NCBI GenBank assembly: GCA_017541025.1
Contig: JAFXZY010000060.1
Coordinates: 1-47,196 of the forward strand
Direction: 5' to 3'
DNA length: 47,196 nucleotides
Source of the DNA: Bacteroidaceae bacterium
GTDB taxonomy: Bacteria > Bacteroidota > Bacteroidia > Bacteroidales > Bacteroidaceae
The notes under the pieces were generated by a model. It worked only from the letters and a program-made list of their open reading frames with translations. It did not search any database and had not been told where the DNA came from. Position 1 is the first letter of the stretch. Each line of letters opens with the position of its first letter. A program made the translations under genes and the position numbers. Positions 30,887 through 37,004 of this stretch are shown one piece after another.

Positions 30887-30924
30887 CGAAGAAATCACTA
30901 AATGTTCTCTGTTATGTCAAATGA

Positions 30925-30946
30925 TTTAACATCTTTTATAGGTAAA
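30925..30946 (+). promoter_or_regulatory. Conserved 22-bp box, copy 1 (before the sigma-TonB gene)
   Basis: TTTAACATCTTTTAT-AG-GTAAA. The same sequence with GA for AG recurs at 31994-32015 before the receptor gene. Distance to the start codon is 51 bp here and 54 bp there. The ends TTTAAC/GGTAAA form an imperfect dyad. It is a candidate promoter or operator for the sigma factor encoded here. Confidence 0.55.
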
Positions 30947-30997
30947 CTTCCTGGGTGTTCTGCGTTAAATAAACAAAAGAACCAAGAAGAAATAAAG

Positions 30998-31942
30998 ATG
31001 GACAATAGTGTAATGACAGAACTGGAGTTTGAACAATTGGTGGAAAAAATGCGCCCCCGTTTGATGCAGATGGGACGTGAATTCTTCGGGTCGGATACAG
31101 AAGCTGAGGAGGTTGTGCAGGAAACATGGCTAAGAGCGTGGAATGTAAGGGACAAGGTGATGCTCACAGAAGCCTACATCATGCGTATTGCCCGTAACTG
31201 CTGTGTCAGTATGTGGCGCGGACAGCGAACGCAAGTGGAATTGGCAGAGAACGATGGGACCGCCGTAACAGAGGTCACGCCCCAGGAAGAGATGGAGGAG
31301 AAGGAGAACTCGGAATGGTTGCAGTTGCGCTTGCAGCGTCTGCCCAAAAACGAACGTGAGGTCTGGCAACTATTCTATGACGACGGATTAACCGTAGAAG
31401 AAATTGCCGAGGAGCGTAACATCAGCGTTGCCACTGTCCGAAAGACAATTTCCAACGTTCGGAGTCGCTTGCGTAAAGACATACGCCGTCACTTCTTCGG
31501 CTTGCGTCATCTGGTCATCATAATCCTTGTTGCTCTGGTAACAGGCATTGCTGTAGCAGCCATCGTCAATCCACAGGGTCGTGTGCGTGGTGCCTTGGAG
31601 AGAATGTTACGCATACCAGAAGATACGACAATTTATGATAGTCCTGAAGTATTACCAAGCAGCAATATGGACTTAGAAAAGTTCTACAGATTTATCATTT
31701 CTGAACTGCATTATCCCGAATCAGCTGCTGACGAGGGTATTGAAGGGCATGTTATTGTCAGCTTTGTAGTTGAGAAGGATGGTACCCTTACTCATTTTGA
31801 AACTCCAAATTCGCCTGATGAGCGTCTCAGCGCAGAGGCTATTCGTGTTATTCGTCTGACAGCGCCCTGGCATCCTGCACAGAATAAAAAGAAGTATGTC
31901 CGTAGTCGGTACAGTACGCCAATCAATTTCAGATTAAAGTAA
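30998..31942 (+). CDS. ECF-type sigma factor fused to a transmembrane helix and TonB C-terminal domain
   Basis: A 314-residue protein from ATG 30998 (an in-frame ATG at 30902 would add 32 residues but would read through the conserved box). Sigma region 2 is about 10-80 ('FGSDTEAEEVVQETWLRAWN'), region 4 about 105-160 ('LPKNEREVWQLFYDDGLTVEEIA', 'SVATVRKTISNVRSRLRK'). A single membrane helix follows at about 170-189 ('LVIIILVALVTGIAVAAIV'), then a periplasmic TonB C-terminal domain at 227-314 ('YPESAADEGIEGHVIVSFVV', 'KDGTLTHFETPNSPDE'). The layout puts DNA-binding parts in the cytoplasm and a receptor-contacting domain in the periplasm. The receptor gene 127 bp downstream is the likely partner. 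Domain calls are firm; the signalling role is inference. Confidence 0.85.
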   Translation: MDNSVMTELEFEQLVEKMRPRLMQMGREFFGSDTEAEEVVQETWLRAWNVRDKVMLTEAYIMRIARNCCVSMWRGQRTQVELAENDGTAVTEVTPQEEMEEKENSEWLQLRLQRLPKNEREVWQLFYDDGLTVEEIAEERNISVATVRKTISNVRSRLRKDIRRHFFGLRHLVIIILVALVTGIAVAAIVNPQGRVRGALERMLRIPEDTTIYDSPEVLPSSNMDLEKFYRFIISELHYPESAADEGIEGHVIVSFVVEKDGTLTHFETPNSPDERLSAEAIRVIRLTAPWHPAQNKKKYVRSRYSTPINFRLK

Positions 31943-31964
31943 AAAAAACAGTTCTAATAGCACA

Positions 31965-31991
31965 AGCCTCACTTAGCGGTGGGGCTTTTTT
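31965..31991 (+). terminator. Terminator after the sigma-TonB gene
   Basis: AGCCTCAC (31965-31972) pairs with GTGGGGCT (31979-31986), with one G-T pair, then TTTTTT. It separates the sigma-TonB gene from the receptor gene. Confidence 0.75.
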
Positions 31992-31993
31992 AT

Positions 31994-32015
31994 TTTAACA
32001 TCTTTTATGAGTAAA
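31994..32015 (+). promoter_or_regulatory. Conserved 22-bp box, copy 2 (before the receptor gene)
   Basis: TTTAACATCTTTTAT-GA-GTAAA, 20 of 22 bases identical to 30925-30946, 54 bp before the GTG start of the receptor gene and just after the terminator. No TAnnTTTG promoter is present, which fits use of an alternative sigma factor. Confidence 0.6.
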
Positions 32016-32069
32016 GATTTAGGAAAAAACACGTTCATATGATAGAAACAAGAACAAAACGAATACACA

Positions 32070-34799
32070 GTGTCAAACAATAGTTTTTTTCACCGCTTTC
32101 TGTTCATCATTACCATTCTGGTTACAGTTGGTAAGGCACAGGGACAAACCATTATCGAGGGGACGATAACGGACTCTCTTGGACGTGCGGTGGACGCTTT
32201 TATCACTATATCACCCAAAGGCACAGGCAATATCATCGGTTTTGCTGATACTGACGTAAATGGATACTATAAGCTTCAGTTCAAAAGTGAAACGGACTCC
32301 GTTGTGGTAACGGCTGCGGGAATAGGTATTGGTAATGTGTCACGTATTGTAGCCAACAAGTCCCAACGCTTGGATATTCGCGCTAATCAGAAGGAGATAG
32401 AACTCAAGGAAGTGTCTGTTAAGGCTGATAAGATACGGCAAAATGGTGACACACTGAATTATTTCGTTGGAACCTACCAGCAGCAGGGCGACCGCGTCAT
32501 CGGTGATGTACTAAAACGTATGCCTGGCATTGAGGTGTCTGAGAACGGGGGCATCAAGTACAACGGCAAGGCCATCAAAAAGTTCTACGTGGAGGAAATG
32601 AACCTGCTACAGGGTCGTTATGGCATAGCAACCAACAACATCAATGCACAGGACGTTGCCACCGTGCAGGTGCTTGAGAACCACCAGCCCGTAAAGATGT
32701 TACAAGGCAAGACCCTTACAGATGATGTTGCCATCAACCTGAAGCTGAAGAACTCAGCCAAAGGAACGATAGCCATCAACACTATGCTGGGAGGCGGTGC
32801 ACAACAGGCACAGACCTTAGGCAGCAATCCCTTATGGACAGCCGAGGCGGTAGGCATGTACTTTGCCAAACGCCGTCAAAACATGACATTATATAAAGGT
32901 AATAATACAGGCGAAGGTATATCAAAAGAACTTACACAGCACTATTCCAGTATCAATAGTGTAGGCCTTTACCCCTTCTGCCCAACGAATGTTATACAGC
33001 CCAGCGGCTCTGGTCTTCCGCAGAAGCGTACTTTTAACAACCACAGCCACATCGTTACGCTCAACCATTTGGAGAAACTGAACAAAGATACGGAGACAGG
33101 CATTAACATTGCCTATCATAACGACTGCATACGCAGGGAAGGAAATAGTCTGAGCGACATCTTTATAAATGATGACAGCAGATTGCTAACCCGAGAGATT
33201 CTGGCCAGTGAAACGAAGATAAACAACCTGAATGTGCAGGCGCGTTACAACTGGAATGCAGAAAACGGTTTCATGGCTAATGTGCTGAAGTTTGATACCA
33301 ATTGGAACAGCGACCATGTGGATGGTCTGATGGCGTCAGAACAGATGGGATTCGTACCTGTGAACTATGGCAACGAGCGTGTCCGCCAGCACTTCCGCCG
33401 TCCGGAACTCTCCATCTCGAACACCTTTAATACCATACGTAACATAGGCAAGAACACCTTTGACCTTCATTTCTCAGCCGGCTATGCACACCGTCCCAAT
33501 ACCCTCAACGTAGCAATTGACTCATTGGATTCACAATCCATAATCCACAACTCGCAATCATATCAGCAGGACATTAACTCCCACCATATTGCCGCTTGCT
33601 TCAACACCAGCTACGAGTTCCGCTTGGGCGATCATTTCCGCTTCAACTACGGCATCAACGCATCGGCCAATCTGCATGGCATCGTTACCGACCTTGATGG
33701 CGCAACCAACTTTCAACTCTCAACTTTCAACTCTCAACTAACCAATGACCTCTGGTACAACACCTACAACATAGCCCTTTGGCAAAGCTACAAATACAAT
33801 ACTCACGACTTAGACATCACCCTGGCTTTGCCGTTAGAGCTCTATACACAAACGCTGGACGACCGCATCCGCAAGGACAAGAACAGCTACACCCATCTGC
33901 TCTTTTTCCCTTCGCTCTCGCTCAATTGGGTCATCACCCGTAACCTCTGGTTCTCTGCAGGTGGCAACTACAGCAAGACCGTGGGTGATCCGGGCGGCAT
34001 CTATAGCGGCTACATTATGTCTAACTACCGCGCTTTCCAACGCAGCTACGTAGACCAACTCTCCGAGACCAAGAACTACAGTGCCAACGCAGGCCTGCGA
34101 TACCGTAGTGCCATTCGCGCCATCTTTGCCAATGTAGGCTTTAATTACCGCCGTACTCATGACAATCAGATTTATGGTTACAGCTACGAAGGTGCCACCA
34201 GCGTGGTGCAGGCTATCAACCAGCCCACCGTTGCCCAGACATACAGCATTAGCGGCGATGTCAGCAAAGGCTTTGATTTCTTGCGCTCTAACATTCGCAT
34301 CTTTGGCGGGTACCGCCTCTCTGAGAGTGAGCGTCTTATCTCCCAAAACCTATACCAATATCATGCTCAGGACATCAGCTTCGGCGGCAGTCTCTCGTTC
34401 TGTCCCGTAGAATGGATGGGCATCGTCTGCAGTAGCGGGTTCAACCTCAGTAGAAGTAAGACCAAGAGCACATCACTTACACCAGGTTGGAATGGGGCTA
34501 CCGTACGCAGCAGCACACAGCGCTTGTCCATGAGCCTATATCCTACCAAAACACTTACGTTGACACTGGCTGCCGAAGACAACTACAATAATCTGACGGA
34601 AGAGAACCGCCATGCCTGGTTCGGTGATGTCTCGGCCAAGCTCAAGCTGAAGCGTTTTGACTTAGAGCTCCAACTCAACAATATCTTTGACCAGCGCCAA
34701 TATACCCGCGTAACGTACAGCAGTCTGGACATCTACACACAGACCTCGCAACTGCGTCCCCGTAATGCAATCCTTACCGTAAGATTCAAACTTTTTTAA
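32070..34799 (+). CDS. TonB-dependent-receptor-like outer-membrane protein with carboxypeptidase-regulatory-like domain
   Basis: A 909-residue protein starting at GTG 32070; no in-frame ATG lies upstream at a sensible distance. Signal peptide about 1-25, then a carboxypeptidase-regulatory-like Ig domain (26-110, 'GTITDSLGRAVDAFITISPKG'). A TonB-box-like stretch 'LKEVSVKAD' comes next, followed by a plug ('GDVLKRMPGIEVSENGGIKYNG', 'VATVQVLENHQPVKML') and a long beta-barrel ending in Phe ('ILTVRFKLF'). It probably imports or senses a ligand through TonB. A GLPGLI gene follows 11 bp later, a common pairing. An in-frame tract of CAACTTT/CAACTCT repeats lies at 33708-33740. Confidence 0.85.
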   Translation: MSNNSFFHRFLFIITILVTVGKAQGQTIIEGTITDSLGRAVDAFITISPKGTGNIIGFADTDVNGYYKLQFKSETDSVVVTAAGIGIGNVSRIVANKSQRLDIRANQKEIELKEVSVKADKIRQNGDTLNYFVGTYQQQGDRVIGDVLKRMPGIEVSENGGIKYNGKAIKKFYVEEMNLLQGRYGIATNNINAQDVATVQVLENHQPVKMLQGKTLTDDVAINLKLKNSAKGTIAINTMLGGGAQQAQTLGSNPLWTAEAVGMYFAKRRQNMTLYKGNNTGEGISKELTQHYSSINSVGLYPFCPTNVIQPSGSGLPQKRTFNNHSHIVTLNHLEKLNKDTETGINIAYHNDCIRREGNSLSDIFINDDSRLLTREILASETKINNLNVQARYNWNAENGFMANVLKFDTNWNSDHVDGLMASEQMGFVPVNYGNERVRQHFRRPELSISNTFNTIRNIGKNTFDLHFSAGYAHRPNTLNVAIDSLDSQSIIHNSQSYQQDINSHHIAACFNTSYEFRLGDHFRFNYGINASANLHGIVTDLDGATNFQLSTFNSQLTNDLWYNTYNIALWQSYKYNTHDLDITLALPLELYTQTLDDRIRKDKNSYTHLLFFPSLSLNWVITRNLWFSAGGNYSKTVGDPGGIYSGYIMSNYRAFQRSYVDQLSETKNYSANAGLRYRSAIRAIFANVGFNYRRTHDNQIYGYSYEGATSVVQAINQPTVAQTYSISGDVSKGFDFLRSNIRIFGGYRLSESERLISQNLYQYHAQDISFGGSLSFCPVEWMGIVCSSGFNLSRSKTKSTSLTPGWNGATVRSSTQRLSMSLYPTKTLTLTLAAEDNYNNLTEENRHAWFGDVSAKLKLKRFDLELQLNNIFDQRQYTRVTYSSLDIYTQTSQLRPRNAILTVRFKLF
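33708..33740 (+). repeat. In-frame CAACTTTCAACTCT tandem tract in the receptor gene
   Basis: CAACTTTCAACTCT repeated about 2.3 times, translated as 'NFQLSTFNSQL'. The same family occurs in reverse orientation in the sigma factor gene (36710-36768) and, as A/T variants, near aroK and flotillin. Confidence 0.75.
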
Positions 34800-34810
34800 A
34801 CCAATAAATT

Positions 34811-35674
34811 ATGAACAGAAGATTTTATATTATCATTTTGGCCTTTGCTGCCATATGCAATGGGGCAAGTGCACAACAGAAACAGGGGAGGGTACATAGA
34901 CCATTGCCTGCTGACTATGGGATGAAGAAGCCAACCATGATTGGCCGAAGTAAAATAAGGATTAAGTATGCTTTCCAGCCAAAGGACATACACGACCCGG
35001 AAACGTGGATTGATTGTGGACAGTTGCTTGTCGGCGACGGGCTGACGCTCTATACGAGTTATTTTGTGGCGCAAAATGATTCGGCTCTGCGCGCATGGCT
35101 GAAAGCCAATCCCAAGAAGAGTTACTATCCCAATAGATTGTGCCTTCATGGGCGAGACTATGCTTTCTGGACGGAGTATCAGTATGGCTATTTCTATGTT
35201 CGTGAAAATGAACTGACCGAGTGGGCTATTATGCCCTTTCCTGAAATTACACACTATCGCTATAGTGAACCATGGCCCTCTATGAAATGGGAACTGAGTG
35301 ATGAACAGCAGACCATCTGTGGCTATCAATGTCAGAAAGCCACATGCCATTGGCGTGGCCGAGACTTTGCGGCATGGTTCACGCCAAAGATACCTATAAA
35401 GTCGGGGCCTTGGAAATTTGGGGGATTACCAGGCCTTATTATGAAGGTATATGATAGCAGACGCCTTTATCTATGGGAGGCTGTGGCCGTAGAGAAGGGC
35501 TCCTTTCCCATCTACCAACCTGATGAACATATGTATAAGAAGAGTACTCGCCAGAAAGTATGGAAAATGCAGAGCGAGTGGAACAAACGCCACAATGAGC
35601 TCGCTGGAGTGCTTGATTTCAACTTCCGTCCCAAAACAAAGCGTTACCCCTACGATCCCTTGGAGCTGGAATAA
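34811..35674 (+). CDS. GLPGLI family protein
   Basis: A 287-residue exported protein with signal peptide (1-21, 'MNRRFYIIILAFAAICNGASA'). The defining motif is in 'WKFGGLPGLIMKVYD' (about residue 200), and a conserved 'ICGYQCQKATCHWRGRDFAAWFT' block precedes it. The family is Bacteroidetes-specific, secreted, of unknown function, and often follows a TonB-dependent receptor-like gene as here. It is co-transcribed with the receptor. One possibility is a periplasmic partner of the receptor in peptide or protein handling; this is inference. Confidence 0.9.
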   Translation: MNRRFYIIILAFAAICNGASAQQKQGRVHRPLPADYGMKKPTMIGRSKIRIKYAFQPKDIHDPETWIDCGQLLVGDGLTLYTSYFVAQNDSALRAWLKANPKKSYYPNRLCLHGRDYAFWTEYQYGYFYVRENELTEWAIMPFPEITHYRYSEPWPSMKWELSDEQQTICGYQCQKATCHWRGRDFAAWFTPKIPIKSGPWKFGGLPGLIMKVYDSRRLYLWEAVAVEKGSFPIYQPDEHMYKKSTRQKVWKMQSEWNKRHNELAGVLDFNFRPKTKRYPYDPLELE

Positions 35675-35871: not shown

Positions 35872-36021
35872 AAAAAGAGCAACCTCGCGGTCGCTCTTTT
35901 TTTAAGTTAGTATGTTTTTTGGATGCTTCGCAGCAACCGTGTTGTTTGTTTTAATTAAGCACTAACTTGTTTATATAGAAAAAGCAATAAAAATGTTATC
36001 TTGTTAAGTTCATGGAGTCCG
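35872..36021. repeat. 150-bp direct repeat, copy 2 (right boundary of the 6.3-kb module)
   Basis: It matches 29433-29582 over its full length with three substitutions. It includes the AGAGCAACC/GGTCGCTCT terminator and the AAGTTAGT/ACTAACTT stem. On the minus strand its first 26 bp encode the last residues ('DSMNLTR') and stop of the anti-sigma-like gene. Confidence 0.9.
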
Positions 36022-36473
36022 TCTGCTCAACAGCAAGTGCAGCCTGCTGTTCTGGCAGGGGTGTTACCTCCTGTACGGGATTCTCCATACTGTCTATTTG
36101 AGCATACTGGGCCTGCTGAGGCTCTTCTGAGCCATCGAAACTACGCTGAGCGGCCATTCCAATGGTGAGAATCAATGCTACTAAGCCTGCTGCCTGATAG
36201 AAAGGACGGAAAAAAGCCCCCCATGCGGCCCCTCTCCCCGCTCCCCCCAAGGGGAGAGCCTTAACTGTTTCACCCTCAATCATATGCAGCATACGGGTAT
36301 CGAAATCCTCACCCAGCGTGGGTTCTGCCTGTTCCTGCTGTACATCAAAGACGGCCTTGTAGGGCATCAGATGGACGGGCACCTCAGCTTGCTGGAAGAA
36401 AGTACGCAGAATTTGCTCCTCCTGTAGAGAAGTCTCGCACGCCCAATAGCGTTCCAATAATTGTTCTATGTAC

Positions 36474-36484
<11 letters not shown>
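35996..36484 (-). CDS. Anti-sigma-factor-like single-pass membrane protein, 3' end rewritten by a repeat
   Basis: A 162-residue protein whose opening 'MDYKYIEQLLERYWACETSLQEEQILRTFF' is typical of a Bacteroidales protein encoded right after ECF sigma genes. One hydrophobic helix lies near 'FYQAAGLVALILTIGMAA'. Its start overlaps the sigma factor by 11 bp, so it is probably the cognate membrane anti-sigma factor. A REP-like unit (36213-36259) is translated in frame just before the helix ('LPLGGAGRGAAWGAFF'). The C terminus and stop come from the 150-bp repeat, so the original tail may be missing. Confidence 0.7.
36213..36259 (+). repeat. REP-like unit inside the anti-sigma-like gene
   Basis: AGCCCCCCATGCGGCC is followed by CCTCTCCCCGCTCCCCCCAA and GGGGAGAG. 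This is a variant with a longer left arm, translated on the minus strand in frame. Confidence 0.75.

Positions 36485-37004
<520 letters not shown>

Follow-up and report, generated by a model that had tools for sequence, protein, structure and literature searches.

We identified a protein that combines, in one chain, an extracytoplasmic function (ECF) sigma factor, a single transmembrane (TM) helix and a TonB C-terminal domain (TonB_C). Its gene lies at 30998..31942 (+) in a 47,196-nt stretch of a Bacteroidaceae bacterium (GenBank assembly GCA_017541025.1, contig JAFXZY010000060.1), here called the window. We propose that this sigma-TonB protein is a one-protein cell-surface-signalling (CSS) switch, in which a membrane-anchored ECF sigma factor with TonB_C as its receiver would be freed by cutting and would read a dedicated promoter; we put the probability of this reading at about 0.6. 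Computation establishes the architecture, its conservation, a shared promoter-like element and the co-occurrence of element and protein across genomes.

Results

Architecture and topology of the sigma-TonB protein

The gene encodes 314 amino acids plus a stop codon, and its start, end and frame were confirmed; a longer open reading frame (ORF) starting at 30902 was rejected as the true start, because the promoter-like element falls inside it and protein conservation among the family members starts at 30998. Sigma-70 region 2 (Sigma70_r2, PF04542; 31037..31228 (+), residues 14-77; Pfam 3.4e-11), region 4 (Sigma70_r4_2, PF08281; 31313..31471 (+), residues 106-158; 4.1e-11) and TonB_C (PF03544; 31703..31936 (+), residues 236-313; 5.7e-17, with identical coordinates in a genome search) each exceed the Pfam gathering score in the window protein. 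The assignment to the ECF sigma factors follows from the presence of regions 2 and 4, found by Pfam in 22/22 members, and the lack of region 3. NCBIfam TIGR02937 matched at 82.9 bits (cut-off 42.9); the GFO_1088/PG0214 and Sig70_bacteroi1 sigma subfamilies scored 98.8 and 92.8 bits, below their curated NCBIfam cut-offs of 130 and 126.4. TonB_C was matched at 62.4 bits against a cut-off of 24.6, and the model of this part has the fold of a TonB C-terminal domain (CTD). The FecR family is not among the 20 Pfam matches listed at E <= 1, and the periplasmic part matches TonB_C.

A single hydrophobic segment links the two halves, with a 19-residue core at residues 172-190 (31511..31567 (+)). In all 22 aligned members its mean Kyte-Doolittle hydropathy is 2.3-3.2 and no 19-mer elsewhere exceeds 1.14; the structural model has a helix here. 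The 15 residues preceding the segment carry 5-7 positive and 0-2 negative charges in these members, a bias that places the N-terminus inside, with the sigma part predicted to be cytoplasmic and TonB_C periplasmic. An AlphaFold2 model of the window protein (mean predicted local distance difference test score 78.6; predicted TM-score 0.44, so low that the mutual placement of domains is not trustworthy) shows sigma2, sigma4, an unbroken helix over residues 144-190 running from region 4 into the membrane segment, with residues from about 226 to 311 folded like TonB. Foldseek searches with the model returned ECF sigma factors, headed by SigW, as well as TonB CTDs, among them 5lw8 and 6i97_D. An earlier note, made from the sequence alone, had read the protein as ECF regions 2 and 4 joined by one helix to a periplasmic TonB-like domain, and Pfam, hydropathy, charge bias, AlphaFold2 and Foldseek all bear it out.

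TonB energy transducers have a long linker between the N-terminal helix and TonB_C. The protein might be such an energised transducer with an incidental sigma domain, since its TonB_C matches well and many invariant positions are kept in the family. However, the 19-residue helix core contains no charged residue, the membrane and TonB_C are separated by a linker of about 35-45 aa, and the genome holds a separate TonB-like protein (L006, G000:C35) whose linker, read from its sequence, is about 110 aa. We regard this alternative as very improbable. For the same reasons of uncharged core and short linker, activation by pulling in the style of an ExbBD-driven TonB, one of the routes raised in the earlier note, is unlikely. 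Proteolytic release is by analogy a reasonable candidate route.

A conserved family

A full-length paralogue, 69% identical, is encoded elsewhere in the same genome (3.28 Mb, 83.85% complete). A scan of genome contigs found 20 loci, 17 spanning residues 1-313 or 1-314 at 64-87% identity and three of them fragments. We aligned 22 distinct proteins from different contigs, 52-87% identical to the first, and all three Pfam families were present in 22/22. The paralogue together with these members rules out an erroneous join of two genes, which the earlier note had named as a possible refutation. Median ratios of nonsynonymous to synonymous substitution rates (dN/dS) were 0.138 for residues 1-165 (162/231 pairs usable), 0.273 for the helix and linker (135/231) and 0.137 for TonB_C (64/231), the omitted pairs being saturated or out of range; the sigma and TonB_C halves are thus under equal purifying selection. 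The window gene and L009:8001-8942 have a dS of 2.1 in the sigma part and 0.35 in TonB_C, a hint that the 3' part was recombined or exchanged. Named hosts are metagenome-assembled genomes (MAGs) of uncultured Bacteroidales, Prevotellaceae or Bacteroidaceae, several from goat, roe deer, yak and water deer gut.

In phylogenetic trees of TonB_C, the 23 fused domains form one group (support 100/94 in one tree, 95/98 in the other), which makes a single origin of the fusion likely. The second tree was built from 56 rows and 92 columns, omitting six rows of the first (L008, L120, L123, L127, L134 and L136) that had long branches or were otherwise unusual. In both trees M56 is a rough class label, set by HE..H or a length over 330, and about 92 columns do not resolve the deeper branching order. 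Among 393 genomes of the order and 395 of the phylum, two overlapping sets with at most five first-look candidates scored per genome (as in the family search below), no near-full-length match was found beyond the family (profile A1, E <= 1e-25; best E apart from the own genome 5.0e-32 in both sets). The listed matches from these other genomes begin at residue 115 or later. Of those starting before residue 150, the two inspected (L150 and L159; G470, G486, G608 and one of G624 were left out) are M56-like by eye.

A promoter-like element before the sigma-TonB gene and its neighbours

The sigma-TonB gene is preceded by a promoter-like element at 30925..30966 (+), which consists of a TTTAACATCTTTTAT block with a -35-like GTAAA (G at 30942) and a -10-like CGTT at 30963-30966. 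A second copy (31994..32035 (+); G of GTAAA at 32011, CGTT at 32032-32035) stands before the adjacent receptor gene, with the same GTAAA-to-CGTT distance of 21 nt. Both blocks in the window have 0 mismatches, where 0.01 occurrences would be expected. The pattern TTTAACATCTTTTATRGGTAAAC...GCGTTATA was found 73-150 nt before the ATG of the sigma-TonB gene, with <=3 mismatches in the block, in 22/22 upstream rows; these represent 19 distinct loci and 18 distinct sequences, three loci having been fetched twice under different ids, so that the element precedes the gene at 19/19 distinct loci. The own genome contains three perfect blocks, before both sigma-TonB genes and before the window receptor gene, and zero perfect sites of the reversed pattern; at lower stringency there are 8 further sites with two mismatches vs 7 reversed-pattern sites at up to two mismatches.

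Within the fetched loci (<=1 mismatch), [CT]GTT lies exactly 21 nt from the G of GTNAA in 42/46 distinct sites, a count that tests spacing and not frequency, many of these loci having been chosen by motif or protein. Of the four remaining sites, one belongs to the L009 receptor gene, one to the L058 sigma gene, and two are apparently chance occurrences. With a 52-nt matrix built from sigma-gene sites, 42 distinct sites in the fetched loci scored above 12 bits, and from the maps we read them as sigma-gene or target-operon sites. The window receptor site does not appear in this set; its support comes from the block and the two hexamer-like words. The element has ECF-like spacing and stands before the protein's own gene and target genes. 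It is probably a promoter, and the sigma-TonB protein probably its reader.

The element tracks the protein across 399 genomes of the family. Perfect blocks number 27 in 17 genomes, vs four reversed-pattern sites in four genomes, and the sigma-TonB protein occurs in 13/399 genomes (E <= 1e-60). The block is present in 12/13 genomes with the protein and in 5/386 without (Fisher p 2.8e-18, not corrected for kinship). In the thirteenth genome (G146), whose member is 53% identical, the element is present in degenerate form. One of the five element-only genomes (G261) carries a truncated sigma-TonB gene, and the site in another (G085) has no CGTT at the right distance and looks like a chance hit. 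In the remaining three (G234, G255 and G293) the element stands before a target operon, and the protein is represented by no more than partial matches to one of its halves.

The element might be read by another sigma factor, with the sigma-TonB protein just one target. The three genomes with the element before a target operon and no detected sigma-TonB gene speak for this, as do the other ECF sigma factors that the genome holds. However, the element follows the protein across the 399 genomes and precedes the members' own genes, and with contigs as short as those of the three genomes (3.5-8.3 kb), some sequence may be missing or mis-binned. We consider reading by another factor improbable.

Of the 27 perfect sites, 13 precede sigma-TonB genes (one truncated), 13 precede other genes and one is apparently a chance occurrence. 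The other genes encode GLPGLI proteins (six sites), receptors (two), S41 peptidases (three) and operons with secreted TonB_C proteins (two). The regulon would probably comprise the protein's own gene, receptors, GLPGLI arrays, secreted TonB_C proteins and S41 peptidases. The S41-type peptidase genes carrying the element lie at L017:11357-13504, L091:13408-15555 and L100:367-2367, assigned by Pfam in L017 and by clustering in the others. The S41-type gene of L100 adjoins an M56-like gene.

Receptor, GLPGLI and secreted TonB_C genes

The next gene in the window, at 32070..34799 (+), encodes an outer-membrane receptor with a putative role in import. OMP_b-brl_3 is above the Pfam cut-off, an N-terminal CarboxypepD_reg match is below it, and no plug domain is among the Pfam matches listed, a plug-like region being seen by eye. 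A ELKEVSVKADKIRQ stretch, read by eye in an analysis that aligned the N-termini of 12 receptors, resembles a TonB box. The sigma and receptor genes are separated by a terminator-like hairpin with a T-rich tail after it (31964..31987 (+); pattern scan; RNA fold -14.3 kcal/mol, z -3.73). The receptor gene would then plausibly depend on its own promoter; terminator-like sites are not enriched in the region (6 vs a shuffle mean of 4.5, sd 2.3). A GLPGLI protein (Porph_ging; PNGase_F-II_N) follows at 34811..35674 (+).

This neighbourhood is conserved. At 17/21 evaluable loci (23 have a complete sigma gene, and L016 and L019 end too soon), sequence clustering assigns the next same-strand gene after sigma-TonB to the receptors or to the GLPGLI proteins, and GLPGLI genes number one to five at these 17 loci. 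At the four other loci sigma-TonB is followed by an S41 peptidase gene (L012), a gene on the opposite strand (L013) or a further ECF sigma gene (L015 and L017). The six PF09697 matches of the own genome lie in the window (one) and at the paralogue locus (five), and among 80 selected genomes GLPGLI genes occur in 15/15 with the protein and 21/65 without. Together with the shared element, this supports a tie to the neighbouring receptor and GLPGLI genes, whose co-occurrence the earlier note had proposed to check.

In 6/23 neighbourhoods there are TonB_C proteins that stand alone and whose N-termini look signal-like by eye. Such secreted-looking proteins, encoded inside operons at L086:10267-10674 (-), L014:13932-14333 and L011:7415-7816, are possible soluble partners or competitors. 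One MAG has a receptor ending in a C-terminal TonB_C (L021:4505-7747). Its TonB_C is nearly identical to the secreted TonB_C of L022, which makes it a probable recent fusion with the next gene, and we gave it no weight as evidence.

The receiver might also have a different partner. A GLPGLI protein, or a secreted TonB_C protein, and not the receptor, might shield the anchored sigma factor from proteolysis and leave on binding a ligand, much as RseB/MucB shield RseA/MucA. The GLPGLI fold is weakly like LolA, RseB and MucB, a likeness that we use for this alternative only; we think such guarding rather unlikely. Elsewhere in the window, at 35996-37004 (-), are a separate ECF sigma gene and a small downstream ORF with no Pfam match, which is possibly its anti-sigma factor.

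Similar operons under other heads

We fetched 20 further regions, 19 of them for GLPGLI genes. In five (L181, L188, L192, L193 and L194), an M56 protein ending in TonB_C stands directly before GLPGLI and receptor genes, the M56 match of L181 being just below the cut-off. Penicillinase_R (BlaI-type) genes upstream were confirmed by Pfam in L181 and L192, the two regions tested. No such head was seen in most remaining regions within the stretch fetched. Two genomes of the same genus, G017 and G014, have an ECF sigma gene that overlaps one for a protein with a short tail, a TM segment and TonB_C, and a receptor gene follows (L178:3334-7548 and L197:2306-6374). These receptors resemble those of sigma-TonB loci (profile scores 1752.7 and 1745.9, vs 177-304 at M56-headed and several other loci), and the short-tail-TM-TonB_C protein looks like an anti-sigma factor with a TonB_C receiver. 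A sigma gene also overlaps a similar TM-TonB_C gene in G164 of another genus (L231:2482-3818), with no receptor adjoining. The tree does not support the split form as direct ancestor of the fusion, and we treat it as an analogue.

We tentatively suggest, with less than even confidence, that TonB_C is a general signal receiver in Bacteroidales. One kind of receptor/GLPGLI operon would then be controlled by three output modules that have nothing in common but a membrane anchor and TonB_C, namely the fused ECF sigma factor, a separate sigma factor with a short-tail-TM-TonB_C protein, and BlaI with M56-TonB_C. In the boldest form of this idea, TonB_C would read the exposed TonB box of a loaded receptor, and the import contact itself would be the signal.

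The M56 heads could also point to an envelope-stress or cell-wall sensor, in which TonB_C would read peptidoglycan or the state of the envelope and the receptor and GLPGLI genes would be mere outputs. The E. coli TonB C-terminal domain can bind peptidoglycan, TonB_C also ends the BlaR1-type M56 proteins heading related operons, and S41 peptidases are among the targets. The usual linkage, however, is to receptor and GLPGLI genes and not to wall enzymes, and we find a wall sensor improbable.

Discussion

We propose the following mechanism for the sigma-TonB protein. Anchoring in the inner membrane would keep the ECF sigma factor inactive, with the final helix of region 4 continuing straight into the membrane helix, and the periplasmic TonB_C would act as signal receiver. 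The trigger would be the gain or loss of a periplasmic partner by TonB_C, for which the TonB box of the co-regulated receptor, the GLPGLI protein and the secreted TonB_C protein are candidates. The protein would then be cut in or near the membrane, and the freed sigma part would read the dedicated promoter before its own gene, the receptor, GLPGLI and a few other envelope genes, with positive feedback through its own promoter. By analogy with characterised systems, proteolytic release is probably the activation route; the choice among the partners is conjectural.

Several observations weigh against this proposal, beginning with the three genomes that have the element before a target operon and no full sigma-TonB gene. 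The linker of about 35-45 aa is short for reaching a TonB box at the outer membrane. No STN family was listed for the receptors of the window (E <= 1) or of L014, L021 and L178 (E <= 0.1), by sequence. The window receptor site scores -0.8 bits on the 52-nt matrix (block +31.8, spacer and rest -32.6), its spacer being unlike those of sigma-gene sites, and the L009 receptor site lacks CGTT. Four of the 21 evaluable loci have no adjoining receptor or GLPGLI gene, GLPGLI genes occur without the protein in the 21/65 genomes noted above, and the three split TonB_C proteins do not group with the 23 fused ones in the tree.

If the proposal is true, TonB_C, familiar from its part in driving nutrient import, also serves to sense that import, and output modules of unrelated kinds have been coupled to it before the same kind of operon. 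This would explain TonB_C on M56 proteases and sigma factors, and would give the unexplained GLPGLI family a regulatory setting. The hosts are some gut and rumen bacteria, in which the switch appears to turn on its own gene and neighbouring surface-receptor genes. One protein, one promoter and a few targets would make it a testable minimal switch.

Membrane-tethered sigma factors and a modelled TonB-like domain in a signalling protein are already known. The earlier note knew of no described membrane-tethered sigma factor, a statement overtaken by IutY (PMC5411451) and by ECF48/52/53, which are expected to be tethered (PMC8999054). Our literature search found no published sigma-TM-TonB_C protein, promoter or regulon; its coverage was partial, and the ECF reclassification may name such a group. 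What is new here is a probable regulon of a sigma-TM-TonB_C protein.

The closest parallel is IutY of Pseudomonas putida (ECF243), which has a cytosolic ECF sigma factor, one TM segment and a periplasmic domain in one chain and works with an outer-membrane receptor (PMC5411451, PMC8999054); it is freed by Prc and RseP (PMC5411451). The sigma-TonB protein has this same one-chain order of sigma, single TM and periplasmic domain. The two differ in that the periplasmic domain of IutY belongs to the CSS anti-sigma (FecR-type) family, in place of which we find TonB_C, and in that cleavage by Prc/RseP was shown for IutY and is predicted here by analogy. ECF48, ECF52 and ECF53 (e.g. SCO4117) also have a C-terminal membrane extension and are expected to be membrane-tethered, but according to PMC8999054 they are actinobacterial, with a zinc-finger anti-sigma region and other extracellular domains. 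VreA of the P. aeruginosa PUMA3 system is a CSS component whose C-terminal domain was modelled by homology as TolA/TonB-like (PMC2729926); it is, however, a separate, mostly soluble protein with STN, and sigma and anti-sigma are encoded by separate genes.

Compared with FecI/FecR/FecA systems (including FoxI/FoxR/FoxA), the window locus likewise involves a sigma factor, a single-pass inner-membrane protein and an outer-membrane receptor, whose gene is apparently in the regulon; it differs in having no separate anti-sigma factor, no STN listed on the receptors tested and TonB_C as the receiver. BlaR1-type M56-TonB_C proteins with a BlaI-type repressor share the periplasmic module and head similar GLPGLI/receptor operons, but they have a metalloprotease domain as output and lie next to a repressor gene, where the sigma-TonB protein carries a sigma factor.
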